Below, in pieces: positions 8,857 to 19,428 of a DNA stretch of 64,000 nucleotides (the first letter of the stretch is position 1; each line of letters begins with the position of its first letter). The DNA lies in contig JAJDAC010000046.1 in the NCBI GenBank assembly GCA_029262065.1, forward strand, positions 148,375-212,374, in the 5' to 3' direction. Both the position numbers and the translations under genes were made by a program. This stretch comes from Candidatus Krumholzibacteriota bacterium. Lineage in GTDB: Bacteria > Krumholzibacteriota > Krumholzibacteriia > JAJRXK01. The notes under the pieces are model-generated. The model saw only the letters and a program-made list of their open reading frames with translations. It was not told the DNA's origin and ran no database searches.

Positions 8857-9900
8857 TCAGTTCTTCCGTTTGCGTTGACGATGCAGTAGCTGGCCGCACG
8901 CCGCCTGGACTTCGCGGCCCGCGCTGTCGCGCACGGTGGCCACCACTCCGCCTTGCCACAGAATCGACGCGAACGCATCGACGGTCGTGCGCTCGGGACG
9001 GTCCCCGCTGAAGTCGTCGATGGGATTGAGTGGAATCAGATTCACCTTGAACGGTCCGCGTCGCGCCAACTCGAGCAGTCGTTTGGCGTGCGCGGTGGTG
9101 TCGTTCTGACCGGCTATCAACGCGCACTCGAGCGTGACCTTGCGATTGGTGGCGTGCCCGTAGTGCGCGGCCGACTCGAGCAACAGTTCCATCGACGTCT
9201 GACCGGCGATCGGCATCAGCCGTCGGCGATCATTGGCGTCGCCCGTGGTAAGCGACACCGCCAGCCCGTAGGGTTTCCGCAGGCGCCCCAGGCTTGCGAT
9301 GCCCTCTACGAGGCCAGAGGTACTCACCGTGATGCGGCGAGCGCTGAGGCCGACCGCGTCGGGGTGGGTGAGGATCTCCAACGCGCTGGCCAGCGCGTCG
9401 AAATTGTCCAGCGGTTCTCCCATGCCCATGAATACGAGCCGCGGATTCTGGGTAGCGGGGTGCCGTCGTCTGAGCTCCAGAACCTGCGCCACGATCTCAC
9501 CGGCGCTCAAGTGCCGGACCAGTCCCATCTTCCCGGTGGCGCAGAAGACACACGCCATGCGGCAGCCGACCTGCGAAGAGATACAGTAGGTCCACTGATC
9601 CTCGGCGCGGGCAATGGCGACAGATTCGATGCGGGCGCCGTCGGCCAGCTCGAACAGATACTTGGTGGTACCGTCGGGCGAGGGCGCAACCGTCGCTTCG
9701 CCCAGCCGAACCACGCCGAGTTCTTCCGCCAACCTTCCGCGCAACGACTTGGGCAGGTCGGTTAGCTCTTCGACCGTGGCTACGCCCCTTTGATATAGAC
9801 CGCTGGCGATCTGCTGACCGCGGTAGGCCGGTTGATCCCATTGGCGCATGAGAGCCTGGAGTTGATCCGGGCCCAGGTCGAGTAACGTGGTGTTCTGCAT
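8857..9900 (-). CDS. rlmN: 23S rRNA (adenine2503-C2)-methyltransferase, radical SAM
   Basis: Methylates C2 of A2503 in 23S rRNA and A37 in some tRNAs. The radical-SAM cluster motif is C-x3-C-x2-C in VGCRMACVFCATG. Other family marks are the N-terminal LLDLGPDQLQALMRQW, YRGQQIASGLYQRGV, GTTKYLFELADG, VFMGMGEPLDNF, SLTTGDANDRRRLMP, LNPIDDFSGD, and the late catalytic cysteine near QAACGQLL. The ATG at 9900 gives 347 residues and starts where the family usually starts. An ATG at 9957 has AGGAG directly abutting it, too close for a normal ribosome site. Confidence 0.96.
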   Translation of the reverse strand: MQNTTLLDLGPDQLQALMRQWDQPAYRGQQIASGLYQRGVATVEELTDLPKSLRGRLAEELGVVRLGEATVAPSPDGTTKYLFELADGARIESVAIARAEDQWTYCISSQVGCRMACVFCATGKMGLVRHLSAGEIVAQVLELRRRHPATQNPRLVFMGMGEPLDNFDALASALEILTHPDAVGLSARRITVSTSGLVEGIASLGRLRKPYGLAVSLTTGDANDRRRLMPIAGQTSMELLLESAAHYGHATNRKVTLECALIAGQNDTTAHAKRLLELARRGPFKVNLIPLNPIDDFSGDRPERTTVDAFASILWQGGVVATVRDSAGREVQAACGQLLHRQRKRKN

Positions 9901-9979
9901 GGGTCGGCTTGACAACGACAGTCGGCTGGGGGAAGTTGGGTCGGCCCCACGGATCATCTCCTACGCATTGGACGGATCC

Positions 9980-10402
9980 ATGGTTCATCCCACCCGCAAA
10001 TCTACGAGCTCTAGTATAGGGCCGCGCGCGTCGGTAGACGAGGATCCGCGTTCGTCATTGCTGTCGGCGGCAGCTGACCCGATTCGATTGCGGATCCTAC
10101 GGCTCCTTCGTAGCCCCCGTTCGGTGCGCGAACTCTGCGAGGCATTGGGCATGGCCCAGCCCCGCGTGTCGCATCATCTGGCCGTGCTGAAAGCCGCCGG
10201 CCTGCTTGATGTGGAGCCACGGGGTAGATTGAGGCTGTACGCCTGGGCGCCACTGGCCGAACCTTCTGAGCTCCGCGACGTACAGAATCTACTGGAGAAA
10301 TGGCTCCAGATTGCGGCGCCCCAGGCGCCCCGATCCCAACCCCTGTCCAAGGTAGCCGCGGCCGGAGCTCACCCACCGACGCTCGAAGACTTCCTGCTCT
10401 AG
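9980..10402 (+). CDS. ArsR-family winged-helix regulator
   Basis: 140 residues from the ATG at 9980 (GGACGG upstream). The winged helix spans about residues 20-100: SLLSAAADPIRLRILRLLRS, VRELCEALGMAQPRVSHHLA, VLKAAGLLDVEPRGRLRLYA. This is the ArsR/SmtB layout. I see no cysteine-based metal site in the alpha-3 helix (it reads ELCEALG), so the ligand is unknown. It is divergent from rlmN and nine bases upstream of the NtrC-type regulator, so the two regulators are probably cotranscribed. An in-frame start at 9887 is possible but would overlap rlmN. Confidence 0.85.
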   Translation: MVHPTRKSTSSSIGPRASVDEDPRSSLLSAAADPIRLRILRLLRSPRSVRELCEALGMAQPRVSHHLAVLKAAGLLDVEPRGRLRLYAWAPLAEPSELRDVQNLLEKWLQIAAPQAPRSQPLSKVAAAGAHPPTLEDFLL

Positions 10403-10411
10403 AGGAGCCCC

Positions 10412-11764
10412 ATGATTCCCGCCAACATCCTCATCGCCGACGACGAGGTTGCCATTCGTGAGAGTATCGGAGGCATCCTGCGCTACGAGGGGTATTCCGT
10501 ATTCGACGCCGCTGATGGGCCCTTGGCCATCGAGCGGCTTCGCAAGGGCGATGTCGACGTCTTGTTGCTCGATGTGAAGATGCCGGGCATGGACGGGTTC
10601 GAGGTCATGGCTCAGATGAAGAACGATGGACTGGATATTCCCGTGGTCGTGATCTCCGGGCACGATGCCGTTTCCACCGCGGTCGAGGCGATCAAGCGCG
10701 GCGCCTACGATTTTCTGGAGAAGCCGTTCAATAAGGAAGAGCTGCTGGTTCGGATCCAGAACGCCCTGGAGAACGGTCGGCTGCGACGCGCCAACGCCGA
10801 GCTGTCCGAAGCCGCCGGATTGGGCACCGAACTCATTGGCCAGAGCCAATCCATGCTGCGCATCAAGGCCCTGATCGAGAAGGTCGCGCCCACGCCGGCC
10901 CGCGTGCTCATTACCGGTGAGAACGGGACTGGCAAGGAGCTTGTGGCGCGGGCGATCCATCGGGGCAGCGATCGGGACAAAGGGCCCTTCGTCGAGGTGA
11001 ACTGCGCCGCCATCCCCGAAGACCTGATCGAGAGCGAGCTTTTCGGGCACGAGAAGGGGTCGTTCACCGGAGCTGGACAGCGCAAGTTCGGTAAGTTCGA
11101 GCGCGCGCACGGCGGCACGCTGTTTCTGGACGAGATCGGCGACATGAGTCCAACCGCCCAGGCCAAGGTGCTGCGGGTGCTTGAGGAAAACCGACTCGAG
11201 CGGGTGGGCGGCAACGACCTCATCACCGTGGATGTGCGGGTGGTCGCCGCTACCAACCGGGACCTCGAGAACGAGGATGCCTTCCGCCAGGATCTGTATT
11301 TTCGGCTCAACGTCATCCAGATCCACATGCCGCCGTTGCGAGAACGGCCCGAGGACATCCCTGCGCTATTCGGCCACTTCATGGACCGCTTTTCGCGTGA
11401 AATGAAGCAGGCGGCCAAACCCATCTCCGAAGACGCGACCTCCCGACTGGGTCGGCACGCCTGGCCCGGGAATGTACGAGAGCTGCGAAACCTGGCCGAA
11501 CGGCTGGCTATCGTGGCCGGGTCCCAGATCGAAGTGGCCGATCTGCCACCTGGAATGGGAGGGCGGGAAAGCGACCGGGGGGCGATCGAATTCCTCGACG
11601 CGCCGACCTTCCAGGAGTTCAAGAACGCGAGCGAGGCGGTGTACATCCAGGCCAAATTGCGCCAGTACGGGTTCAACGTTTCCCGTACCGCCGAGGAGCT
11701 GCAGATGCAACGAAGTAATCTGTACAAGAAGATCCAGAAGTATGATCTGCGGACCAGCGAGTAG
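10412..11764 (+). CDS. NtrC-family sigma-54-dependent response regulator
   Basis: 450 residues. The receiver domain covers residues 1-120, with acidic D10/D11, phospho-acceptor D54 in LLLDVKMPGMDG, and the conserved lysine in FLEKPF. The AAA+ domain covers about residues 140-370: Walker A GENGTGKE, sigma-54 contact loop GSFTGA at about 216-221 (alanine replaced by serine), and Walker B GTLFLDEIGDM. A Fis-type HTH closes the protein (VSRTAEELQMQRSNLYKKIQ). It activates sigma-54 polymerase when phosphorylated. No histidine kinase lies nearby, so its sensor is elsewhere. The ribosome site AGAGGAG is close to ideal. Confidence 0.95.
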   Translation: MIPANILIADDEVAIRESIGGILRYEGYSVFDAADGPLAIERLRKGDVDVLLLDVKMPGMDGFEVMAQMKNDGLDIPVVVISGHDAVSTAVEAIKRGAYDFLEKPFNKEELLVRIQNALENGRLRRANAELSEAAGLGTELIGQSQSMLRIKALIEKVAPTPARVLITGENGTGKELVARAIHRGSDRDKGPFVEVNCAAIPEDLIESELFGHEKGSFTGAGQRKFGKFERAHGGTLFLDEIGDMSPTAQAKVLRVLEENRLERVGGNDLITVDVRVVAATNRDLENEDAFRQDLYFRLNVIQIHMPPLRERPEDIPALFGHFMDRFSREMKQAAKPISEDATSRLGRHAWPGNVRELRNLAERLAIVAGSQIEVADLPPGMGGRESDRGAIEFLDAPTFQEFKNASEAVYIQAKLRQYGFNVSRTAEELQMQRSNLYKKIQKYDLRTSE

Positions 11765-12009: not shown

Positions 12010-12321
12010 ATGAAGGGCCTCGTAACGACCATTTTGGTTCTGATGCTCGCACTAATTGCGGTGAACGCTGTCGTGACTCCAGCGCAGGCTGAGCCACCGC
12101 GGGCAATGGCGATGAACAACCCCTCTGATCCCCCGGTCGTTCGCGACACTGGGGACATAGGGATTACACACGGCGACGGAGATGACATTGGTGGCGGCGA
12201 CGAAGTCGACCCGCCTCCCGCGCTGCGAGAAGTGGATCCGCGAGAGTCGGGATCTGCTCAAGTATGGTGGGAATTCATCAGTCGCGTGATCCAGTCGCTG
12301 TCGAAACTCAGGAGCATCTAG
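12010..12321 (+). CDS. Small exported peptide precursor, unknown function
   Basis: 103 residues with an AGGGAG ribosome site. A clear signal peptide (VTTILVLMLALIAVNAVVTP, then AQA) should be cleaved near residue 27. The mature part is acidic and glycine-rich (GDGDDIGGGDEVDPPP) and ends in a more hydrophobic, partly basic tail (WWEFISRVIQSLSKLRS). I recognise no family. It sits 94 bases upstream of the TPR-containing sigma-54 activator and behind its own promoter. That position recalls peptide and TPR-sensor pairs in Gram-positive bacteria. The comparison is inference; the ORF could equally be a small periplasmic protein. Confidence 0.6.
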   Translation: MKGLVTTILVLMLALIAVNAVVTPAQAEPPRAMAMNNPSDPPVVRDTGDIGITHGDGDDIGGGDEVDPPPALREVDPRESGSAQVWWEFISRVIQSLSKLRSI

Positions 12322-12416
12322 AAGATAAGTCAAGCGCGAGCCGGTCAGGCCGGCGGCAAGATCTCTTTAAGCAGATCTGGCAACCTTGAATCTCGTTCTC
12401 GCCCAAGGGACGCCTG

Positions 12417-15400
12417 ATGCATGAATTTGGAGATGGAGAGAGGGCCCACGGCCCCTCTCCATCGGAACCCCACAACCGAGCAGATTATCCGCTTCCTCTT
12501 TCTGAAGAAGAAGTAGGAGACCTGCACTACCACGCCGAGGGTTACTCGTCCGCGCTCGAGTACTACCGGTCGGCTTGCGAGCAAATCGAAGCCGCTCACA
12601 ACGAAGCTCGCCCACGATCTCTTCTGACCATGCGCCTGGCGCGGAAGATCGGTGATTGCTATCGCCGACAGGGGCTGCCGGTCGAAGCATCCCGGCAATA
12701 CGTCGAGGCCCTGAAGGTCGGCGCCGCCTACGCCACCGATGAGCAGAACGCTTCTATCTATGTGCGTCAGGCCGACGTCCTTTTCCAGACCAGTGACTAC
12801 GATCGCGCGCTTGATGTGCTGCTGAGCGCCATGGCGGTACTCGCCAGCACTGACATGCATCTGGAAGTGGGCTGGGTGCAACGCCTCATGGGTGCCTGTC
12901 ACCATCGGCTGGGTAACCACGCCAAGGCCGAGGAGTTCTACCAGGACTCGCTCGCCACCTATCGCCGTGTGGGTGAAGTGCTTCGGCAGGCCCGCATCTA
13001 TCGCAACCTGGCGGTCCTGGCCAAGACGGCCTGTCGCTGGAACCGTGCGATGTTCTTCTTCGACAAGGCCGAACGACTTCTGCAGGGCGAACACGGTACG
13101 CCTCAGGAGTCGTGCATCCTTTATCTGAATCGCGCGATCCTGCACCGCAAGATGGGCCAACGCGCACGTGCTCGCGCCGATGTGCAGCGCGGCCTGAGCC
13201 TGGCCCGGAGCCTGGGCGACAATTTCCGCTTGGCGAAGTTCCGTTTGATCGAGGGTCAACTGGATATCGACGAGGGTCGTTTCGCCGAGGCCGAAAGCAA
13301 CCTGCTCGAGTGCAAGGTGTTGGCCGAGCGCATCCATGCGCGTCGCGAGGTAGCACTGTCAGAAGAGTTCCTGGGCGATCTCATGATGGCGCGCGGACTG
13401 TGGGACGAGGCCGAGCGCAGTTACGCCGAGGCCGAGACCAGGGCGCGCGAGATCAGTGAGACCAATGATATCCTGGCCGAAGTCTACCGCCGTCGTGCCG
13501 AGTTGGCCTTCGAGCGCGGTGAGTTCACCGAGACGCTGGCCATGGCGGAAATCGGTCATGAGCTGTCCGACGCCTGCGGTGAAGAGTTTGAGCGGGGCTA
13601 CCTGGAGCGGGCGCGTGGTCGCGCGTTGAACGCCTTGGGCGATTTCAAGGGCGCCCTGGCCGCGCTCGATGCGTCGCTCGCGGCGTTCGAGAAACTGCGC
13701 CTACCGGCCGAGATCGCGGTGGCCTTGCAGCTGCTGGGCGACCTCCACCTCGAGCTGAACGATCATACGAACCTGCTGCTGGCCCGGGCGCGCTTCCAGC
13801 AGGCAGTCACTCTCGACGTTTCCAACAGTTCCATTACACCCTGCTCGTTGTATACCGGGCTGGCCCGTGCGGAACTGGCCCTGGGGAACAACGACGAGGC
13901 GCTGCTGGCCCTATTCGAGGTCGAGCGTCTGAGTTGTGTCTCCGATACGGAAGCCGATGGCACGCTGGACGACTTGCGGGCCGAAATAGAAGCGGCCATG
14001 TCTTCGCATGCGAATACGCTTTCGTCGCAATATCAGGCCATCGCGGATTTGCCCGAAATGGTTGTCGAAGATCAGGTGCATCTCAATGGCGACCTCGAAT
14101 CCCTGCTTCGGTCCTTGGCAAAACGACTGGGCGTAACTCGAGCCATCCTGGCGCGACACGAAGTGGGTAAGACCAAACTATTCTGGCGTTGGGAAGTGGG
14201 CGTGCGCGACGCGCGGTCGCTGGCCGACCATGCCATTTCGTTACTGGTAGACGACGAGCATTTCGAGGGCCCGCGAGTGTGGACCCATACCGCGGCCGAC
14301 ATTGGATGGCGTGGCGCCAAAGTTGCGCCGCAGGCGTCGGCCATCGTCTACCCTCTGATAGGTCAAGACGGAATCGAAGGTGTGCTCTACCTCGATGCGG
14401 CTCGCGAGGGTTCATCTGGTTTCGATGCCGAATCGCTGGCTCTGGGCTCCACCTACGTACAACTCATTCAAGAGAGTCTACCGCGCAGCACGGTTTCCTC
14501 TTCGCTTACGCCCGACGCCGGAGCGGTGGTGCGCCGTCGCTTGATTACCGGCAGTGCGGCGATGGAAGAGGTCATGGTCCTGTGCTCGAAGGTTGCCTCG
14601 AGTCCCTACACGGTCTTGTTTTCGGGCGAGACGGGGACGGGCAAGGGTCTGCTGGCCAGCATCGTCCATGAGATCAGCCCGCGCGCCGGCCAGGCTTTCG
14701 TCAGTGTCAATTGCGCGGCGATTCCCGAGACGCTGCTCGAGTCCGAACTGTTCGGGCACGTGAAGGGTGCGTTCACAGGCGCCGATCGCGACCGTGAGGG
14801 TCTTATTCTGAGCGCGCAGGGCGGCACATTGTTTCTCGACGAAGTGGGCAAGATGAGTCTGCCCATGCAGTCCAAGTTGTTGCACTTCCTCGACAGCAAG
14901 GAAGTGCGTCCGGTGGGTGGATCGCAGACCGTGCGGGTGGACGCGCGTGTGCTCGTGGCCAGCAAGCGCAACCTGAAGGGTATGGTCGATCGCGAGGAGT
15001 TCCTGGAAGATCTGTACTATCGTCTGCTCGACTTTCCGATCGAGGTACCACCGTTGCGTGATCGCGGTGACGATATTCTCTTGTTGGCGCGCTACTACAT
15101 CGATCGAACGGCCGAAGAACTGGGGCGCTCCGCTCCCACGATGACGCGAGCCTACGCGGCCAAGCTTCGGGCCCATCGTTGGCCCGGTAACGTTCGCGAA
15201 ATGGAAAAAGTCATCAAGCGAAGCGTGATCCTGGCCCAGGATGACGATCGTCTTCGCGACACCTACCTGACCACGGAACTCAGCCCCCGTGCCTCGCGCG
15301 GCGCCGGATCGGCTGATCTGCACAACGATACGATGCCTCTCAAGGAACAGATCGCTTCGTTGGAGCGAACGGTGCTGCGCCGGGCTTTGGAGAGCCACGA

Positions 15401-15491
15401 CTGGAATCGCGCGCAGGTGGCGCGGCAACTACGCATCTCCTATCCAACTTTGTTGCAGAAGATTCGTATCTACGAACTTCGTCCGCAGTAG
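12417..15491 (+). CDS. TPR-GAF-AAA+ sigma-54-dependent transcriptional activator
   Basis: 1024 residues. Residues ~30-530 are tandem tetratricopeptide-type helices (e.g. YSSALEYYRSACEQIEAAH and HAKAEEFYQDSLATYRRVGE). A GAF-like domain follows at ~559-685 (LLRSLAKRLGVTRAILARH and AIVYPLIGQDGIEGVLYLD). The AAA+ domain has Walker A GETGTGKG near 737, an intact GAFTGA loop at ~785-790 and Walker B GGTLFLDEVGKM. A Fis-type HTH closes the protein (DWNRAQVARQLRISYPTLLQ). There is no receiver domain, so control should come from ligand or peptide binding by the TPR or GAF part rather than phosphorylation. AAGGGA precedes the ATG. Two sigma-54 promoters lie just downstream of the gene. Confidence 0.93.
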   Translation: MHEFGDGERAHGPSPSEPHNRADYPLPLSEEEVGDLHYHAEGYSSALEYYRSACEQIEAAHNEARPRSLLTMRLARKIGDCYRRQGLPVEASRQYVEALKVGAAYATDEQNASIYVRQADVLFQTSDYDRALDVLLSAMAVLASTDMHLEVGWVQRLMGACHHRLGNHAKAEEFYQDSLATYRRVGEVLRQARIYRNLAVLAKTACRWNRAMFFFDKAERLLQGEHGTPQESCILYLNRAILHRKMGQRARARADVQRGLSLARSLGDNFRLAKFRLIEGQLDIDEGRFAEAESNLLECKVLAERIHARREVALSEEFLGDLMMARGLWDEAERSYAEAETRAREISETNDILAEVYRRRAELAFERGEFTETLAMAEIGHELSDACGEEFERGYLERARGRALNALGDFKGALAALDASLAAFEKLRLPAEIAVALQLLGDLHLELNDHTNLLLARARFQQAVTLDVSNSSITPCSLYTGLARAELALGNNDEALLALFEVERLSCVSDTEADGTLDDLRAEIEAAMSSHANTLSSQYQAIADLPEMVVEDQVHLNGDLESLLRSLAKRLGVTRAILARHEVGKTKLFWRWEVGVRDARSLADHAISLLVDDEHFEGPRVWTHTAADIGWRGAKVAPQASAIVYPLIGQDGIEGVLYLDAAREGSSGFDAESLALGSTYVQLIQESLPRSTVSSSLTPDAGAVVRRRLITGSAAMEEVMVLCSKVASSPYTVLFSGETGTGKGLLASIVHEISPRAGQAFVSVNCAAIPETLLESELFGHVKGAFTGADRDREGLILSAQGGTLFLDEVGKMSLPMQSKLLHFLDSKEVRPVGGSQTVRVDARVLVASKRNLKGMVDREEFLEDLYYRLLDFPIEVPPLRDRGDDILLLARYYIDRTAEELGRSAPTMTRAYAAKLRAHRWPGNVREMEKVIKRSVILAQDDDRLRDTYLTTELSPRASRGAGSADLHNDTMPLKEQIASLERTVLRRALESHDWNRAQVARQLRISYPTLLQKIRIYELRPQ

Positions 15492-15722
15492 CTGACTGTC
15501 CATAGTCACACGTCCTTTACTCGCGGACCTCTTCCCCTATAAAACTTCTTTCCATGGCGTAAGTCGCAAGCTGTGAATGGCTTGGCCGGGTTCGTGGCTC
15601 CGGGGTGGGCGCACACCTATAAAGACTTTTAATACTTCGACGGGCTAGCTCGACAGCGCGCTGGCCGCGTTTTCAAGTCATTGTTTTATAACAACTTACG
15701 CGGTTGGCTCGGATGCCCAAAG
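15492..15722 (+). promoter_or_regulatory. Gene-free upstream region with a direct repeat (possible activator sites)
   Basis: No convincing gene. CCTATAAA followed by an ACTT-containing stretch occurs at 15536 and again at 15616, exactly 80 bases apart. A small palindrome, TTGTT/AACAA, lies at 15681-15694. Repeats at this distance upstream of a sigma-54 promoter are where an AAA+ activator would bind. The assignment is inference. Confidence 0.25.
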
Positions 15723-15738
15723 TGGCACATGCCATGCT
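15723..15738 (+). promoter_or_regulatory. Sigma-54 promoter (first)
   Basis: TGGCAC, five bases, ATGCT. The invariant GG and GC dinucleotides have the exact 10-base spacing of -24/-12 promoters, with one mismatch in the -12 box. The predicted start is near 15748. It lies 230 bases after the gene for a sigma-54 activator. Confidence 0.65.
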
Positions 15739-15748
15739 TTGCTACATG

Positions 15749-16119
15749 GTCAGATCGGATAACGCAAAGGCAGTCGTGATCCGGTCGTCCAGTAAGGGTC
15801 TTCGGACCACACGAGTTTCGGAGGATGGAGAGACGAATGTCCTCTCCGTTCACCGGCTGAATGAGGAAGTTTTCCGAAAATGGGTTTCGTCGCTACGGAT
15901 GTGAGAGGTGGGGTCTCGTATTCGGCCGCGACGGGAATAATGGAAAACTATCGTTCTGTCCATCCTCCGAGATCTTCGTCAGTTTTGACCCGAGCCTAGC
16001 CACGAGGCGGCCTGGATGTCTTGGGAAGGCGAGACCCAAGACGATCCGCGAAGGGCAGCTTCACAGGGATCGGGTTGTTCCTGACGGTAACGAGCCCCGG
16101 CTATGCCGGGGCTCGTTTT
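15749..16119 (+). ncRNA. Candidate sigma-54-driven structured RNA
   Basis: A stretch of about 370 bases lies between the sigma-54 promoter and a strong terminator, with no convincing gene. Visible stems are GGAGAG/CTCTCC (15827-15832 with 15842-15847), GTCTTGGG/CCCAAGAC (16018-16025 with 16035-16042) and the terminator itself. A frame of about 52 codons from the ATG at 15746 lacks a ribosome site. I do not see the signatures of tmRNA, RNase P RNA or SRP RNA. A short-peptide mRNA remains possible. Confidence 0.35.
16091..16119 (+). terminator. Strong intrinsic terminator
   Basis: CGAGCCCCGGC pairs perfectly with GCCGGGGCTCG around the loop TAT, followed by TTTT. It ends whatever is transcribed from 15748. 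Confidence 0.88.
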
Positions 16120-16281
16120 ACTTTGCCCTCAGCCAAGACCTCTTCCCTCGGCACCTCGCCCAAACGCCCTTTTTTCGTAGCGCCGATCCACTCCGAGTCT
16201 CGTCGCCTTGTCCTCGTCTGAGGACACCGACCTGTCGCCCGGCAGCTACGAATTGCCGGCGCCGCGCCCTTCTGGTCCCCT

Positions 16282-16297
16282 GTCACGGTTCTGTGAC
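16282..16297 (+). promoter_or_regulatory. Inverted repeat, candidate activator-binding site
   Basis: GTCAC, six bases, GTGAC, about 83 bases upstream of the second sigma-54 promoter's -24 box. That is the usual range for an enhancer-binding protein. Nothing else stands out in 16120-16379. Confidence 0.3.
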
Positions 16298-16379
16298 TTG
16301 TTCCGTAAAGTGCATTTGTACAGCAGGTTGTATCGTTCTTGGGGGGCGGTGACCGACCCGCTGGGAATCTCCTGCCGCC

Positions 16380-16395
16380 TGGCACGTAGGCTGCG
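16380..16395 (+). promoter_or_regulatory. Sigma-54 promoter (second) for the lipoprotein/DUF4384 pair
   Basis: TGGCACG, four bases, CTGC. The -24 box matches the consensus perfectly and the GG-GC spacing is correct. The predicted start is near 16405, about 35 bases before the ATG at 16441. Confidence 0.75.
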
Positions 16396-16440
16396 TTAGG
16401 GAATAGTGCACACACCCGTAGAACAATGGAGGTGGGACCA

Positions 16441-17358
16441 ATGAGACTGGGCAATGAGATGGGGAAGAGGAAGAGGACGAGGACGATGATGATGCGTGGG
16501 AGCCTTTCGCTCGTGGCCGCGCTTCTGCTGTCTGGGCTGGTCGCCTGCGATGACGACGACGATTTCGCCGACGTCAATCCGCCGGCCATTCCCAACGGTG
16601 TGTTCAGCATCACGGCTGACAATGAAGTGTGGTTGGTGTGGAATCCAAACCGCGAGCGTGATCTCGACGGTTACAACATCTGGTGGAACGCCAACGGTGG
16701 AACTCGTTTCGAACTGATCGGAACGATCGACGCCACGGATCCCACCTACTACGACCCGGGGTTTGACGCCAATGATCCGGGCGACGATTTCCTGATTTTC
16801 AGCGATATCGACGTCATCAATGGTGAGGCTCAGTACTACGCCGTGAGCGCTTTCGATCGCCACGGCAATGAGAGCGATTTGAGCCTCGAGTTCGTGCGCG
16901 ATGTGCCCAGACCGGAGGGATTCGTCGATTTGACCGATCGCTTCGTCACGGCCGCGCAATCCGGCTATGACCTGAGCGGCTTGTCCGAACAGGCTCAACC
17001 CTTCAATTTGGCCACGACCGATGTGTGGTTCGAACGCCTCGGGCCAGATGGGGTGGGATTCCTTACGGTCGATCCCACGCGCGTGCTGATCCAGGACTAT
17101 GGTAACGTCGGTTTCGACGTGGCTTCCTGGGCGCCGCTGAATGGTTGGTCGGCCTTGGGCCAGGTTGAGGCTATCGAAGGTCACACGTACATTCTGCGCG
17201 TGAGTGAGTCGGTCGGCGCACCCACGTTCAATTTCGCGAAGCTCACCATTCTCGACCTTGCGGCAACGTCGGTCGAGTTGCAGTGGGGTTACCAGATCGT
17301 CGAAGGCGAGCAGGAGCTACTCGTTGCTCCGCTGCCCCAGGGCGATGAAGAAGTTTAA
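16441..17358 (+). CDS. Lipoprotein with fibronectin-type-III-like domain
   Basis: 305 residues. I chose the ATG at 16441 because GGAGGTGGG lies just upstream; an ATG at 16426 has no site. A basic head (MGKRKRTRTMMMRG) is followed by a lipobox (LLLSGLVAC), then an Asp run (DDDDD) directly after the cysteine. A beta-sandwich resembling fibronectin III follows (PAIPNGVFSITADNEVWLVW, then DLDGYNIWWN and YYAVSAFDRHGNES). The rest is unassigned. It lies twelve bases before the next gene and just after the sigma-54 promoter, so both should form one regulated unit. Cell-surface or periplasmic location is inferred. Confidence 0.75.
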   Translation: MRLGNEMGKRKRTRTMMMRGSLSLVAALLLSGLVACDDDDDFADVNPPAIPNGVFSITADNEVWLVWNPNRERDLDGYNIWWNANGGTRFELIGTIDATDPTYYDPGFDANDPGDDFLIFSDIDVINGEAQYYAVSAFDRHGNESDLSLEFVRDVPRPEGFVDLTDRFVTAAQSGYDLSGLSEQAQPFNLATTDVWFERLGPDGVGFLTVDPTRVLIQDYGNVGFDVASWAPLNGWSALGQVEAIEGHTYILRVSESVGAPTFNFAKLTILDLAATSVELQWGYQIVEGEQELLVAPLPQGDEEV

Positions 17359-17370
17359 GGAGGAGCTGCA

Positions 17371-19428
17371 ATGAAACGTCACCACTTTGCGCTCATCCCC
17401 CTGTTTTCCGTGGTCCTGGGCTTGGCGGCGATCCCTGCCGCCGCCCAGACCTCGGGGCCGAAGATCGACATGGCCGCTCTCTGGCTTTCGGGCCAGGAAC
17501 TTGGAGTCGAGGACTCCGCCGGTCGTGTCGATCCCGAGGACTACCCCGATCGTGAAATGCGAGTCGAGGTCTGGCACGACAAGGACGACGACGAGACCTA
17601 CTCGCGAGGCGAGGAGTTCTCGGCTTACTTCCGCACCAACGCGGATCTCTACGTTGTCGTGTATCGCATCGATGCCGACGGCATCGCGGAAGTCCTCTGG
17701 CCGACGTCGCGTTTCGACGATGGTTTTGTGTACGGGGAGCACGCGTACGTCATTCCGGCCCAGAAGAATGGGCCGAGGTTGCGGGTCAGCAACAGCAAGG
17801 GCGTGGAGTATCTTCAGGCCATTGCCAGTCGATATCCGTTCGACCTGCGCAACCTTGGTATGGATTTCACGTTCGCTCGCACCGACAACGACGAGCGCTA
17901 CCGCTATAAAGTGGCGGGGGATCCGTTCCTGGCCGTCAACGACATCAACTACGCCATTACCGGCCTTGAGGAGGACGTAGACTACCTGGTTACCGATTGG
18001 TCGCACATCTACATCGAGTCGAAGGTCGAATACGCGCGGTACACGTGCACGCAGTGTCACACCGAAGAGGATGACTACCATCCCTACGTCGACACCTGCT
18101 CCACGGTGAACGTCTACTACGACTACGGTTGGCACAATCGCTGGTATTCGCGGTTCGGTTGGTATCCGCTCTACTATGACCCGCCGTACTATTACTATGA
18201 CTACGTGTCGTACCGTCCCTACTGGTTTTCGTACTATCCCGTGAACTACAGTTGGGCGTGGTGCAACATCTACACGCGTCCGTACTCCGTTTACGGTTGG
18301 CACGATTCGCCGTACTACGCGGGCGACTACGGAGTCCGGTATCGGCGGGGCTACGGAACGCGGCCACTGTATGATGTCGCGTCACCGTCAACCAACTTGC
18401 GGCTACGCGACCGGGACCTACGTGGTCGTGGGCCGGCTAGTATCGCCCGGACCAATCGGCGCGGCGATCGCGATGCCATCCGTCGTGTCGACGAAACGCA
18501 GTTGGTGCGCAACGGCGTCGACCGGGATTTGCGCACGGTTTCGCGCGATCGCAACCGGGGCGGAGATCGAGGACGCGACATCGCACGGGTCGAAGGTCGT
18601 GGAGATCGCCGTGGCGGCGTTCAACGCGATACCGAGCGCCGGCGAGATCGCACCATCGTGAGCCAGAAGCCTTTGGATCCTTCGCGAACACCTACGCGCA
18701 TTTCAGACCAACCGCGGCGTGGCGTTTCGAAGCCTGGCGTTTCGAAGCCTGGAGTTGCCAAACCCGCGGATCGCACACGCGATGACCGTGGCAATGGGCG
18801 CAAATGGACGCGTCCGGTAGTTCGCAACGGAGACCGTGACACCAACAACGGGCGCGATCGTTCGGGTACGGTTGAACGCCGTAGTCCTCGCGATCGGGGC
18901 CGGACCGTGGTTTCGCCACCCTCCAAGCCGCGCCAGGGCCAGCAGAAGCCTTCCGTGGACCGCAGCAAACCGCGCCAGGGCCAGCAGAAGCCTTCCGTGG
19001 ACCGCAGCAAGCCGCGCCAGGGTCAGAAGAAGCCAGCCGTGGACCGCAGCAAGCCGCGCAAGGGTCAGAAGAAGCCAGCCGTGGACCGCAGCAAGCCGCG
19101 CAAGAAGGGTAACGATGCTCCCAACGTGAGTCGTTCGACTTCGCGTCAGGGTCGCAGCAAGCCGGCGGTGGCGCCGTCGAAGCCGCGGGGCAACAAGACA
19201 TCGAGTCGAGGTGGAGGGAACGTGCGTGCGCGTTCGAGCGACAAGCGTCGCAGTGCTCCGGCCAAGCCCAGCTCCCGGTCCTCGGTGAGCAAGAAGAGTG
19301 GCAGCAAGAGCCGGAGCAGCGCCACGGTCAAACGTGGTGGCACAACCTCGCGCAAGTCGTCACCGGCTCGCAGCAGTAGCCGGGGTGGATCGCGTCGCAG
19401 CGGCGGATCCAAGAAGGGGCGTGGTTGA
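17371..19428 (+). CDS. Exported DUF4384-like protein with CxxCH motif and histone-like basic tail
   Basis: 685 residues with an AAGGAGGAG ribosome site and a signal peptide (LIPLFSVVLGLAAIPAAAQ). Residues ~45-150 resemble DUF4384 (FRTNADLYVVVYRIDADG, PTSRFDDGF). A Cys-rich stretch near residue 225 reads CTQCH, with another Cys about 15 residues on. A tyrosine- and tryptophan-rich segment follows (YDPPYYYYDYVSYRPYWFSY). From about residue 340 the protein is very basic and low in complexity, ending in repeats of PRQGQQKPSVDRSK and a Ser-Arg-Lys tail like histone H1. Function unknown; it could bind polyanions at the cell surface. The single CxxCH could bind zinc or haem, and I cannot tell which. 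Confidence 0.7.
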   Translation: MKRHHFALIPLFSVVLGLAAIPAAAQTSGPKIDMAALWLSGQELGVEDSAGRVDPEDYPDREMRVEVWHDKDDDETYSRGEEFSAYFRTNADLYVVVYRIDADGIAEVLWPTSRFDDGFVYGEHAYVIPAQKNGPRLRVSNSKGVEYLQAIASRYPFDLRNLGMDFTFARTDNDERYRYKVAGDPFLAVNDINYAITGLEEDVDYLVTDWSHIYIESKVEYARYTCTQCHTEEDDYHPYVDTCSTVNVYYDYGWHNRWYSRFGWYPLYYDPPYYYYDYVSYRPYWFSYYPVNYSWAWCNIYTRPYSVYGWHDSPYYAGDYGVRYRRGYGTRPLYDVASPSTNLRLRDRDLRGRGPASIARTNRRGDRDAIRRVDETQLVRNGVDRDLRTVSRDRNRGGDRGRDIARVEGRGDRRGGVQRDTERRRDRTIVSQKPLDPSRTPTRISDQPRRGVSKPGVSKPGVAKPADRTRDDRGNGRKWTRPVVRNGDRDTNNGRDRSGTVERRSPRDRGRTVVSPPSKPRQGQQKPSVDRSKPRQGQQKPSVDRSKPRQGQKKPAVDRSKPRKGQKKPAVDRSKPRKKGNDAPNVSRSTSRQGRSKPAVAPSKPRGNKTSSRGGGNVRARSSDKRRSAPAKPSSRSSVSKKSGSKSRSSATVKRGGTTSRKSSPARSSSRGGSRRSGGSKKGRG
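18928..19095 (+). repeat. Four tandem 42-base coding repeats
   Basis: Four near-identical 42-base units (18928, 18970, 19012, 19054) each encode PR(Q/K)GQ(Q/K)KP(S/A)VDRSK. Units 1-2 and units 3-4 are most alike, which suggests recent pairwise duplication. Copy number may vary between strains. Confidence 0.9.

Follow-up and report, generated by a model that had tools for sequence, protein, structure and literature searches.

The locus described here lies within a window of 64,000 nucleotides (nt), the whole stretch of DNA that was analysed, from a Candidatus Krumholzibacteriota bacterium. Its two central genes are an open reading frame (ORF) for a small protein of 103 amino acids (aa), predicted to be exported, and an ORF for a 1024-aa activator that combines tetratricopeptide repeats (TPRs) with a sigma-54 output, and 95 nt separate the two. 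The small protein is the proposed ligand precursor (below also "the peptide") and the activator the proposed receptor. A preliminary description of this DNA had placed a small exported ORF directly 5′ of a regulator with N-terminal TPR repeats and an AAA+ sigma-54 output, and both ORFs were recovered at its coordinates. The features of the locus are the following (HTH, helix-turn-helix; AF2, AlphaFold2 model; +, forward strand).

10412..11764 (+): NtrX/AtoC-like response regulator, with receiver, sigma-54 AAA+ and Fis HTH domains
12010..12321 (+): small protein predicted to be exported (103 aa), the proposed ligand precursor; ATG start, GGAG ribosome site
12010..12090 (+): predicted Sec signal peptide, residues 1-27, ending in AQA (sequence, home-made rule, AF2 helix 3-19)
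12172..12198 (+): GDxDD motif (GDGDDIGGG, residues 55-63), its Gly-Asp invariant in the alignment of 49
12238..12315 (+): C-terminal helix with WW, residues 77-102 (AF2)
12417..15491 (+): TPR / GAF-like / sigma-54 AAA+ / Fis-HTH activator, 1024 aa, proposed receptor
12492..13928 (+): TPR superhelix, residues 26-504 (AF2)
14091..14474 (+): GAF-like domain, residues 559-686 (AF2 and Pfam match of a homologue)
14544..15041 (+): sigma-54 interaction AAA+ domain with GAFTGA (Pfam)
15339..15470 (+): Fis-type HTH region, residues 975-1018 (Pfam, AF2)
15723..15738 (+): sigma-54 -24/-12 site S1 (TGGCACATGCCATGCT)
15748..16117 (+): structured RNA, from predicted start to terminator, about 370 nt
15903..15917 (+): hairpin GAGA-GGUGGGG-UCUC
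16020..16040 (+): second covarying hairpin, with loop GGCGAGA invariant in four near relatives
16089..16117 (+): intrinsic terminator, 13 pairs
16380..16395 (+): sigma-54 -24/-12 site S2 (TGGCACGTAGGCTGCG)
16426..17358 (+): predicted lipoprotein (LVAC lipobox, read by eye)
17371..19428 (+): DUF4384 protein (Pfam)

In the activator, Pfam recognizes five TPR_12 stretches, Sigma54_activat (residues 710-875; E 2.3e-62), an AAA lid and HTH_8 (residues 980-1017), which bears out the TPR and sigma-54 halves of the preliminary description. No receiver domain was found by Pfam in the 1024-aa protein, again as first described. A Pfam match to GAF is absent from the window's activator; the homologue P0002 carries one (PF13185), and the AF2 model places an alpha/beta domain at residues 559-686, with about 24 TPR helices within residues 26-504. 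Features of bacterial enhancer-binding proteins are present, namely the Sigma54_activat AAA+ domain with its GAFTGA loop and the C-terminal Fis-type HTH, and the AAA+ domain aligns to LuxO. The genome encodes one RpoN (a single Sigma54_DBD match, E 9.6e-66). Full-length frames of the orthologues measure 965-1098 aa from stop to stop, and the TPR A-helices hold 22 conserved polar positions, the single-letter column at residue 71 being left out.

The pairing of the two genes is conserved. With the 1024-aa protein as query, 58 genomes (the window's own and its relatives, 37 genera) were searched; an activator spanning at least residues 31-929 was found in 43 of them and pieces in others. From 48 of these genomes, 49 loci were oriented, the window included (G044 contributes two), and the partial receptor matches in the other ten were left out. 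A signal-peptide ORF lies on the same strand at -620 to +60 of the activator start in 49/49 loci, so that no locus lacking it occurs among these. The opposite strand holds one in 0/49 loci; among shuffled sequences the rate is 0.10%, and among control windows it is 3 of 1346. The gap from this ORF to the activator measures 15-119 nt in 47 loci, L080 and L085 being left out because of a miscalled activator start. The adjacency of the small ORF to the activator is thereby confirmed as real and not due to chance. A profile of the 49 peptides was also run over 80 genomes of the class (the phylum also gave 80). It matched directly 5′ and on the same strand for 72 of 76 activator matches (E <= 4.9e-61), and in genomes outside the building of the profile an adjacent match was present for 22 of 26 receptors. 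An adjacent profile match is missing at four of the 76 receptors (G073, G075, G014 and G072), whose upstream DNA was not read; in G073 the peptide match lies on another contig, and the receptor matches of the other three are partial or weaker. Among the best 79 peptide matches (E <= 0.00127), 7 lie away from the listed receptors, three of them strong and on other contigs (G052, G073, G045) and four weak. One genome holds a second peptide-activator pair, L077 (G044:C1:2045700-2056700), near which no response regulator, sigma-54 site or lipoprotein relative was detected.

The peptide also seems to diverge together with its neighbor. In 38 loci, partial Mantel tests show that peptide divergence follows that of the activator (r 0.18 for the TPR part and 0.31 for the AAA part, each 0/2000 permutations) and does not follow that of the response regulator (r -0.06). 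This counts as weak support because the peptide alignment is poor.

The small protein itself is short and variable. Its N-terminus in the window has the form K-x-hydrophobic and ends in AQA; the signal peptides of all small ORFs were called by a home-made rule. At the 49 loci the chosen starts give 97-120 aa, and first-ATG variants reach 134 aa. The ratio of nonsynonymous to synonymous change (dN/dS) is 0.23-0.58 in seven close pairs, which speaks for translation of the ORF and, with its presence at all the loci, for a conserved gene, a point on which the preliminary description had made its proposal depend. Between families the proteins are weakly similar, and in alignment A2 the only invariants are Met1 and the Gly-Asp of GDxD. 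A profile-based protein search returned 86 members of 96-133 aa, the window's own included, and none of the 86 bears a functional name. Source taxa named for them are Candidatus Krumholzibacteriota (P0031) and Latescibacterota (P0109). GDx[DGEHS] is present in 86/86 of these members, an A-x-A-like site at the expected place in 70/86 and WW within the last 25 residues in 73/86. A large subgroup (within P0028-P0110) has a Gly-rich linker, an EGDADGLSGLK-like motif and a WW[KR]xM end; the presence of this end in 61/86 members suggests that it may be functional. For the small-protein family AF2 gives one helix in the signal peptide and another at residues 77-102, with low-confidence coil between them (mean pLDDT 62), and therefore no globular fold is predicted. 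A candidate peptide paralogue in the window's own genome, L002, was rejected, as it contains a stop and spans two longer ORFs.

The response regulator gene is the usual upstream neighbor, lying directly 5′ of the pair in 44 of the 49 loci; two of the five misses are contig ends. At L061 and L074 two divergent genes occupy its place. The response regulator is thus not tied to the pair, which stays where the regulator is displaced or missing. In the window, an ArsR-type HTH gene (Pfam HTH_5, 9887-10402) lies just 5′ of the response regulator gene.

The same genomes contain a diverged family of TPR-sigma-54 receptors of about 800-900 aa (mostly 795-905) without GAF. Twenty such paralogous loci (L160-L179) were chosen as a negative control; the result for the small ORF was positive and is kept as evidence. 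A small signal-peptide ORF was found 5′ of 16/20 with a first, lax rule and of 20/20 with a wider rule, for which the background is 5.6% (65 of 1156 windows) and 4/40 upstream of response regulator genes. Since the paralogous receptors also have a small exported ORF, the pairing seems to have survived duplication. By eye, 12 of the 20 peptides carry GDPxD and 6 [GA][DE]PG[EH]DP, L171 has GDPNG, and L172 has neither. L172 is doubtful, with its small ORF about 450 nt upstream, no GDP-type motif and a receptor frame of 666 aa; this receptor is possibly truncated or frameshifted. The small exported ORF of the paralogues often overlaps the receptor start. Upstream of four of the 20 there are weak receiver-only matches (at most 62.4 bits), and in the flanks, which are short, no relatives of the lipoprotein or the DUF4384 protein were found.

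Downstream of the activator, sigma-54 sites are a regular feature. The scan reached up to 1.3 kb past the activator stop, took a score of 13.5 out of 16.1 as strong, and covered 45 loci, two of the other four being miscalled and two cut short. At least one strong site was found in 43/45 loci and two sites in 27; the reverse strand has one in 4/45 loci, and shuffled sequences do in 8%. At a lower threshold of 13.0, S1 could be located in 39 of the 45. In the window, S1 precedes the structured RNA and S2 precedes the lipoprotein/DUF4384 operon. A lipoprotein relative occurs downstream in 36 and a DUF4384 relative in 21 of the 49 loci, the window counted in both; in L074 the lipoprotein relative stands at a distance of 4.2 kb, and several absences are due to the contig ending. 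Of 34 loci, 19 have a sigma-54 site within the 470 nt that precede the lipoprotein match (reverse strand 2/34; shuffles 3.2%). The C-terminal half of the DUF4384 protein is long, basic and repetitive, with KPRxGQxKPxVDRS units.

The transcript expected from S1 has the marks of a structured RNA. The region 15748-16120 folds at -176.2 kcal/mol, compared with -136.5 +/- 6.1 for shuffles (z -6.6, 0/100), and its first 238 nt alone give z -3.9 (1/200 shuffles). In four near relatives, four helices (26 pairs), picked from 61 pairs predicted on the same four-relative alignment, are paired in 93% of cells, and in 13 of the pairs both partners have changed; none of 500 shuffles and no slid version reaches this level. 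Ten f5 sequences are paired in 94% of cells over 39 of 50 predicted pairs, with 16 pairs in which both partners have changed, and again no shuffle comes up to this. Structures drawn from the same alignment somewhat favor such pairing counts, and more weight lies with the two-sided changes. GUGGGG occurs no more than 330 nt from the predicted start in 37/39 loci, as against 16% of shuffles; the two misses are a contig end and a masked stretch. In Rfam 15 the window region 15480-16430 gave a sole match of 16.4 bits, the gathering score being 42, and seven loci gave no match at E <= 0.1. The RNA model R1 matches one family only (12 loci). A structured RNA with compensatory base changes and without an Rfam family is conserved after S1. 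A short coding gene at this place was considered and rejected: by eye, none of the ORFs that reach 25 aa and have a stretch resembling a ribosome site was common to the families in the 39 loci.

The peptide-sensing link put forward in the preliminary description is partly supported. Taken together, the most likely explanation of these data is a circuit in which the small protein is the dedicated ligand of the adjoining TPR-sigma-54 activator, which would switch on S1 (the RNA) and S2 (the lipoprotein/DUF4384 operon); we give this proposal about an even chance. The precursor would be exported by Sec, and a fragment of it would return to the cytoplasm through one of the five SBP_bac_5-type permeases; the genome encodes five SBP_bac_5 proteins, which are candidates for peptide import. 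The returned fragment would bind the concave TPR face. The ligand part might be the acidic GDxD segment, facing conserved Lys/Arg of the concave side, or the C-terminal helix. Binding would alter the AAA+ ring, and the activator would then drive S1 and S2, while in the GAF-bearing receptor family the GAF-like domain and the NtrX-like regulator may add further inputs. Re-import is the weakest step of this mechanism; it is favored because the layout is RRNPP-like and importers are present.

Several observations weigh against this proposal. The invariant motif is central (median relative position 0.62 along the peptide), unlike RRNPP pheromones, which lie at the C-terminus of the propeptide. The WW end is not general, being found within the last 30 residues in 7 of the 49 loci peptides, and families f3 and f7 (e.g., L088 and L087) carry their hydrophobic stretch before the GDADD motif and not at the C-terminus. 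As to the receptor, mean conservation is close for the TPR A- and B-helices (2.50 vs 2.38 bits), and a fold search neither separates TPR families nor singles out RRNPP receptors. The Mantel coefficient is larger for the AAA part than for the TPR part, and the co-divergence is therefore with the whole activator and not with the TPRs in particular. Sigma-54 sites 5′ of the peptide are not enriched (at a threshold of 12.5, 2/49 loci and 4.3% of shuffles; at 11.5, 7/49 loci and 14% of shuffles). Among the paralogues, the G[AS]F[TS]GA loop is present in only 13/20 and downstream sigma-54 sites were seen in only 2/20 loci, many of which are cut short. Finally, L061 and L074 have a gene for a sigma-54 activator some 2.3-3 kb farther upstream, which is possibly the displaced regulator.

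The central position of the motif, together with the lack of a short C-terminal sequence common to all peptides, would fit a sensor of export, the main rival explanation. Here the TPRs would bind the unexported precursor in the cytoplasm; with Sec export or the envelope in good order the precursor would leave, whereas a back-up of precursor would switch envelope genes; if so, the same circuit would report the state of export or of the envelope. In its favor, the signal peptide is retained in all 49 loci, and what the circuit is proposed to control includes an exported lipoprotein along with a DUF4384 protein. This explanation covers the same facts as re-import with fewer steps. The sequence, however, does not separate precursor sensing from re-import, and we know of no TPR sensor of such kind; we consider it rather unlikely. 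The small protein could also belong to the envelope, or be something the circuit produces, rather than serve as its ligand, and be kept beside the regulator through co-expression. Its predicted export and C-terminal helix agree with such a role, as does its place in a block with the lipoprotein and DUF4384 genes. Yet a small exported ORF also stands beside the paralogues, where no relative of those two genes was found in the short flanks, and no sigma-54 site precedes the small ORF, which makes this explanation improbable in our judgment.

It could further be supposed that the TPR-sigma-54 protein integrates input from other cytoplasmic proteins, such as the response regulator, with the peptide as unrelated cargo. 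Many TPRs bind proteins, the response regulator is the common upstream neighbor, and receiver-only matches recur upstream of a few paralogues. Against this, loci with a displaced or undetected response regulator still have the peptide, and the distances between peptides do not track those of the regulator; we give this idea very little credence.

A wider form of the ligand proposal would make the locus part of a phylum-wide, Gram-negative peptide-pheromone system that arose apart from RRNPP, in which exported GDxD peptides would form families, each re-imported and read in the cytoplasm by a TPR-sigma-54 receptor of its own, and in which the GUGGGG-loop RNA, new to science, would be a main output, a peptide-driven counterpart of LuxO-Qrr. 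This is possible but doubtful on the present evidence. If true, the logic of exported peptide and TPR receptor would have arisen more than once and would work in two-membrane cells; by its phylum, the host presumably has an outer membrane. If the precursor is sensed instead, a new way of sensing protein export would be at hand. The paralogous pairs are ready material for testing specificity. The RNA is a structured family outside Rfam, found in a lineage that has received little study, and both a promoter site and a candidate activator are at hand for it.

Among known systems, RRNPP is the one to which the preliminary description had likened the locus. Two surveys that cover Firmicutes (PMC10075063, PMC9765709) describe TPR receptors which read exported peptides in the cytoplasm, the second treating RRNPPA. 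The characters listed are a propeptide of 10-100 aa, Sec export, a receptor of 250-500 aa, TPRs and direct adjacency, with recognition of the mature peptide by the TPRs (PMC10075063). The likeness holds for the TPRs (five TPR_12 stretches, about 24 helices) and for direct adjacency, which is found in 49/49 loci. It does not hold for receptor length, at 1024 aa here and mostly 795-905 in the paralogues. The propeptide is at most 100 aa in 2/49 loci and just above this in 47/49 (103 in the window), and export is predicted, 49/49 passing the home-made rule. Other differences from Rap-Phr, NprR-NprX, PlcR-PapR and Rgg are the sigma-54 AAA+ output on the C-terminal side and the central position of the conserved peptide motif. 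Because receptor length falls outside the RRNPP range, the system is laid out like RRNPP but is not a member. In the literature, the pairing, the peptide or the RNA was not described among the matches listed.

For the regulator alone, TPR regulators of the MalT type (MalT domain III, 1hz4) are a near comparison. MalT, a STAND ATPase with a LuxR HTH, responds to a sugar, and we know of no peptide partner for it. For the output, the models are LuxO-Qrr, CbrB-CrcZ and GlrR-GlmY, in which a sigma-54 activator stands beside its own small RNA. Unlike the LuxO-Qrr type, the activator described here has no receiver domain, is joined to a TPR sensor and a peptide gene, and is followed by an RNA without an Rfam match; the arrangement is otherwise alike, in that the intergenic region adjoining a gene for a sigma-54 AAA+ activator holds a sigma-54 site together with a structured RNA.

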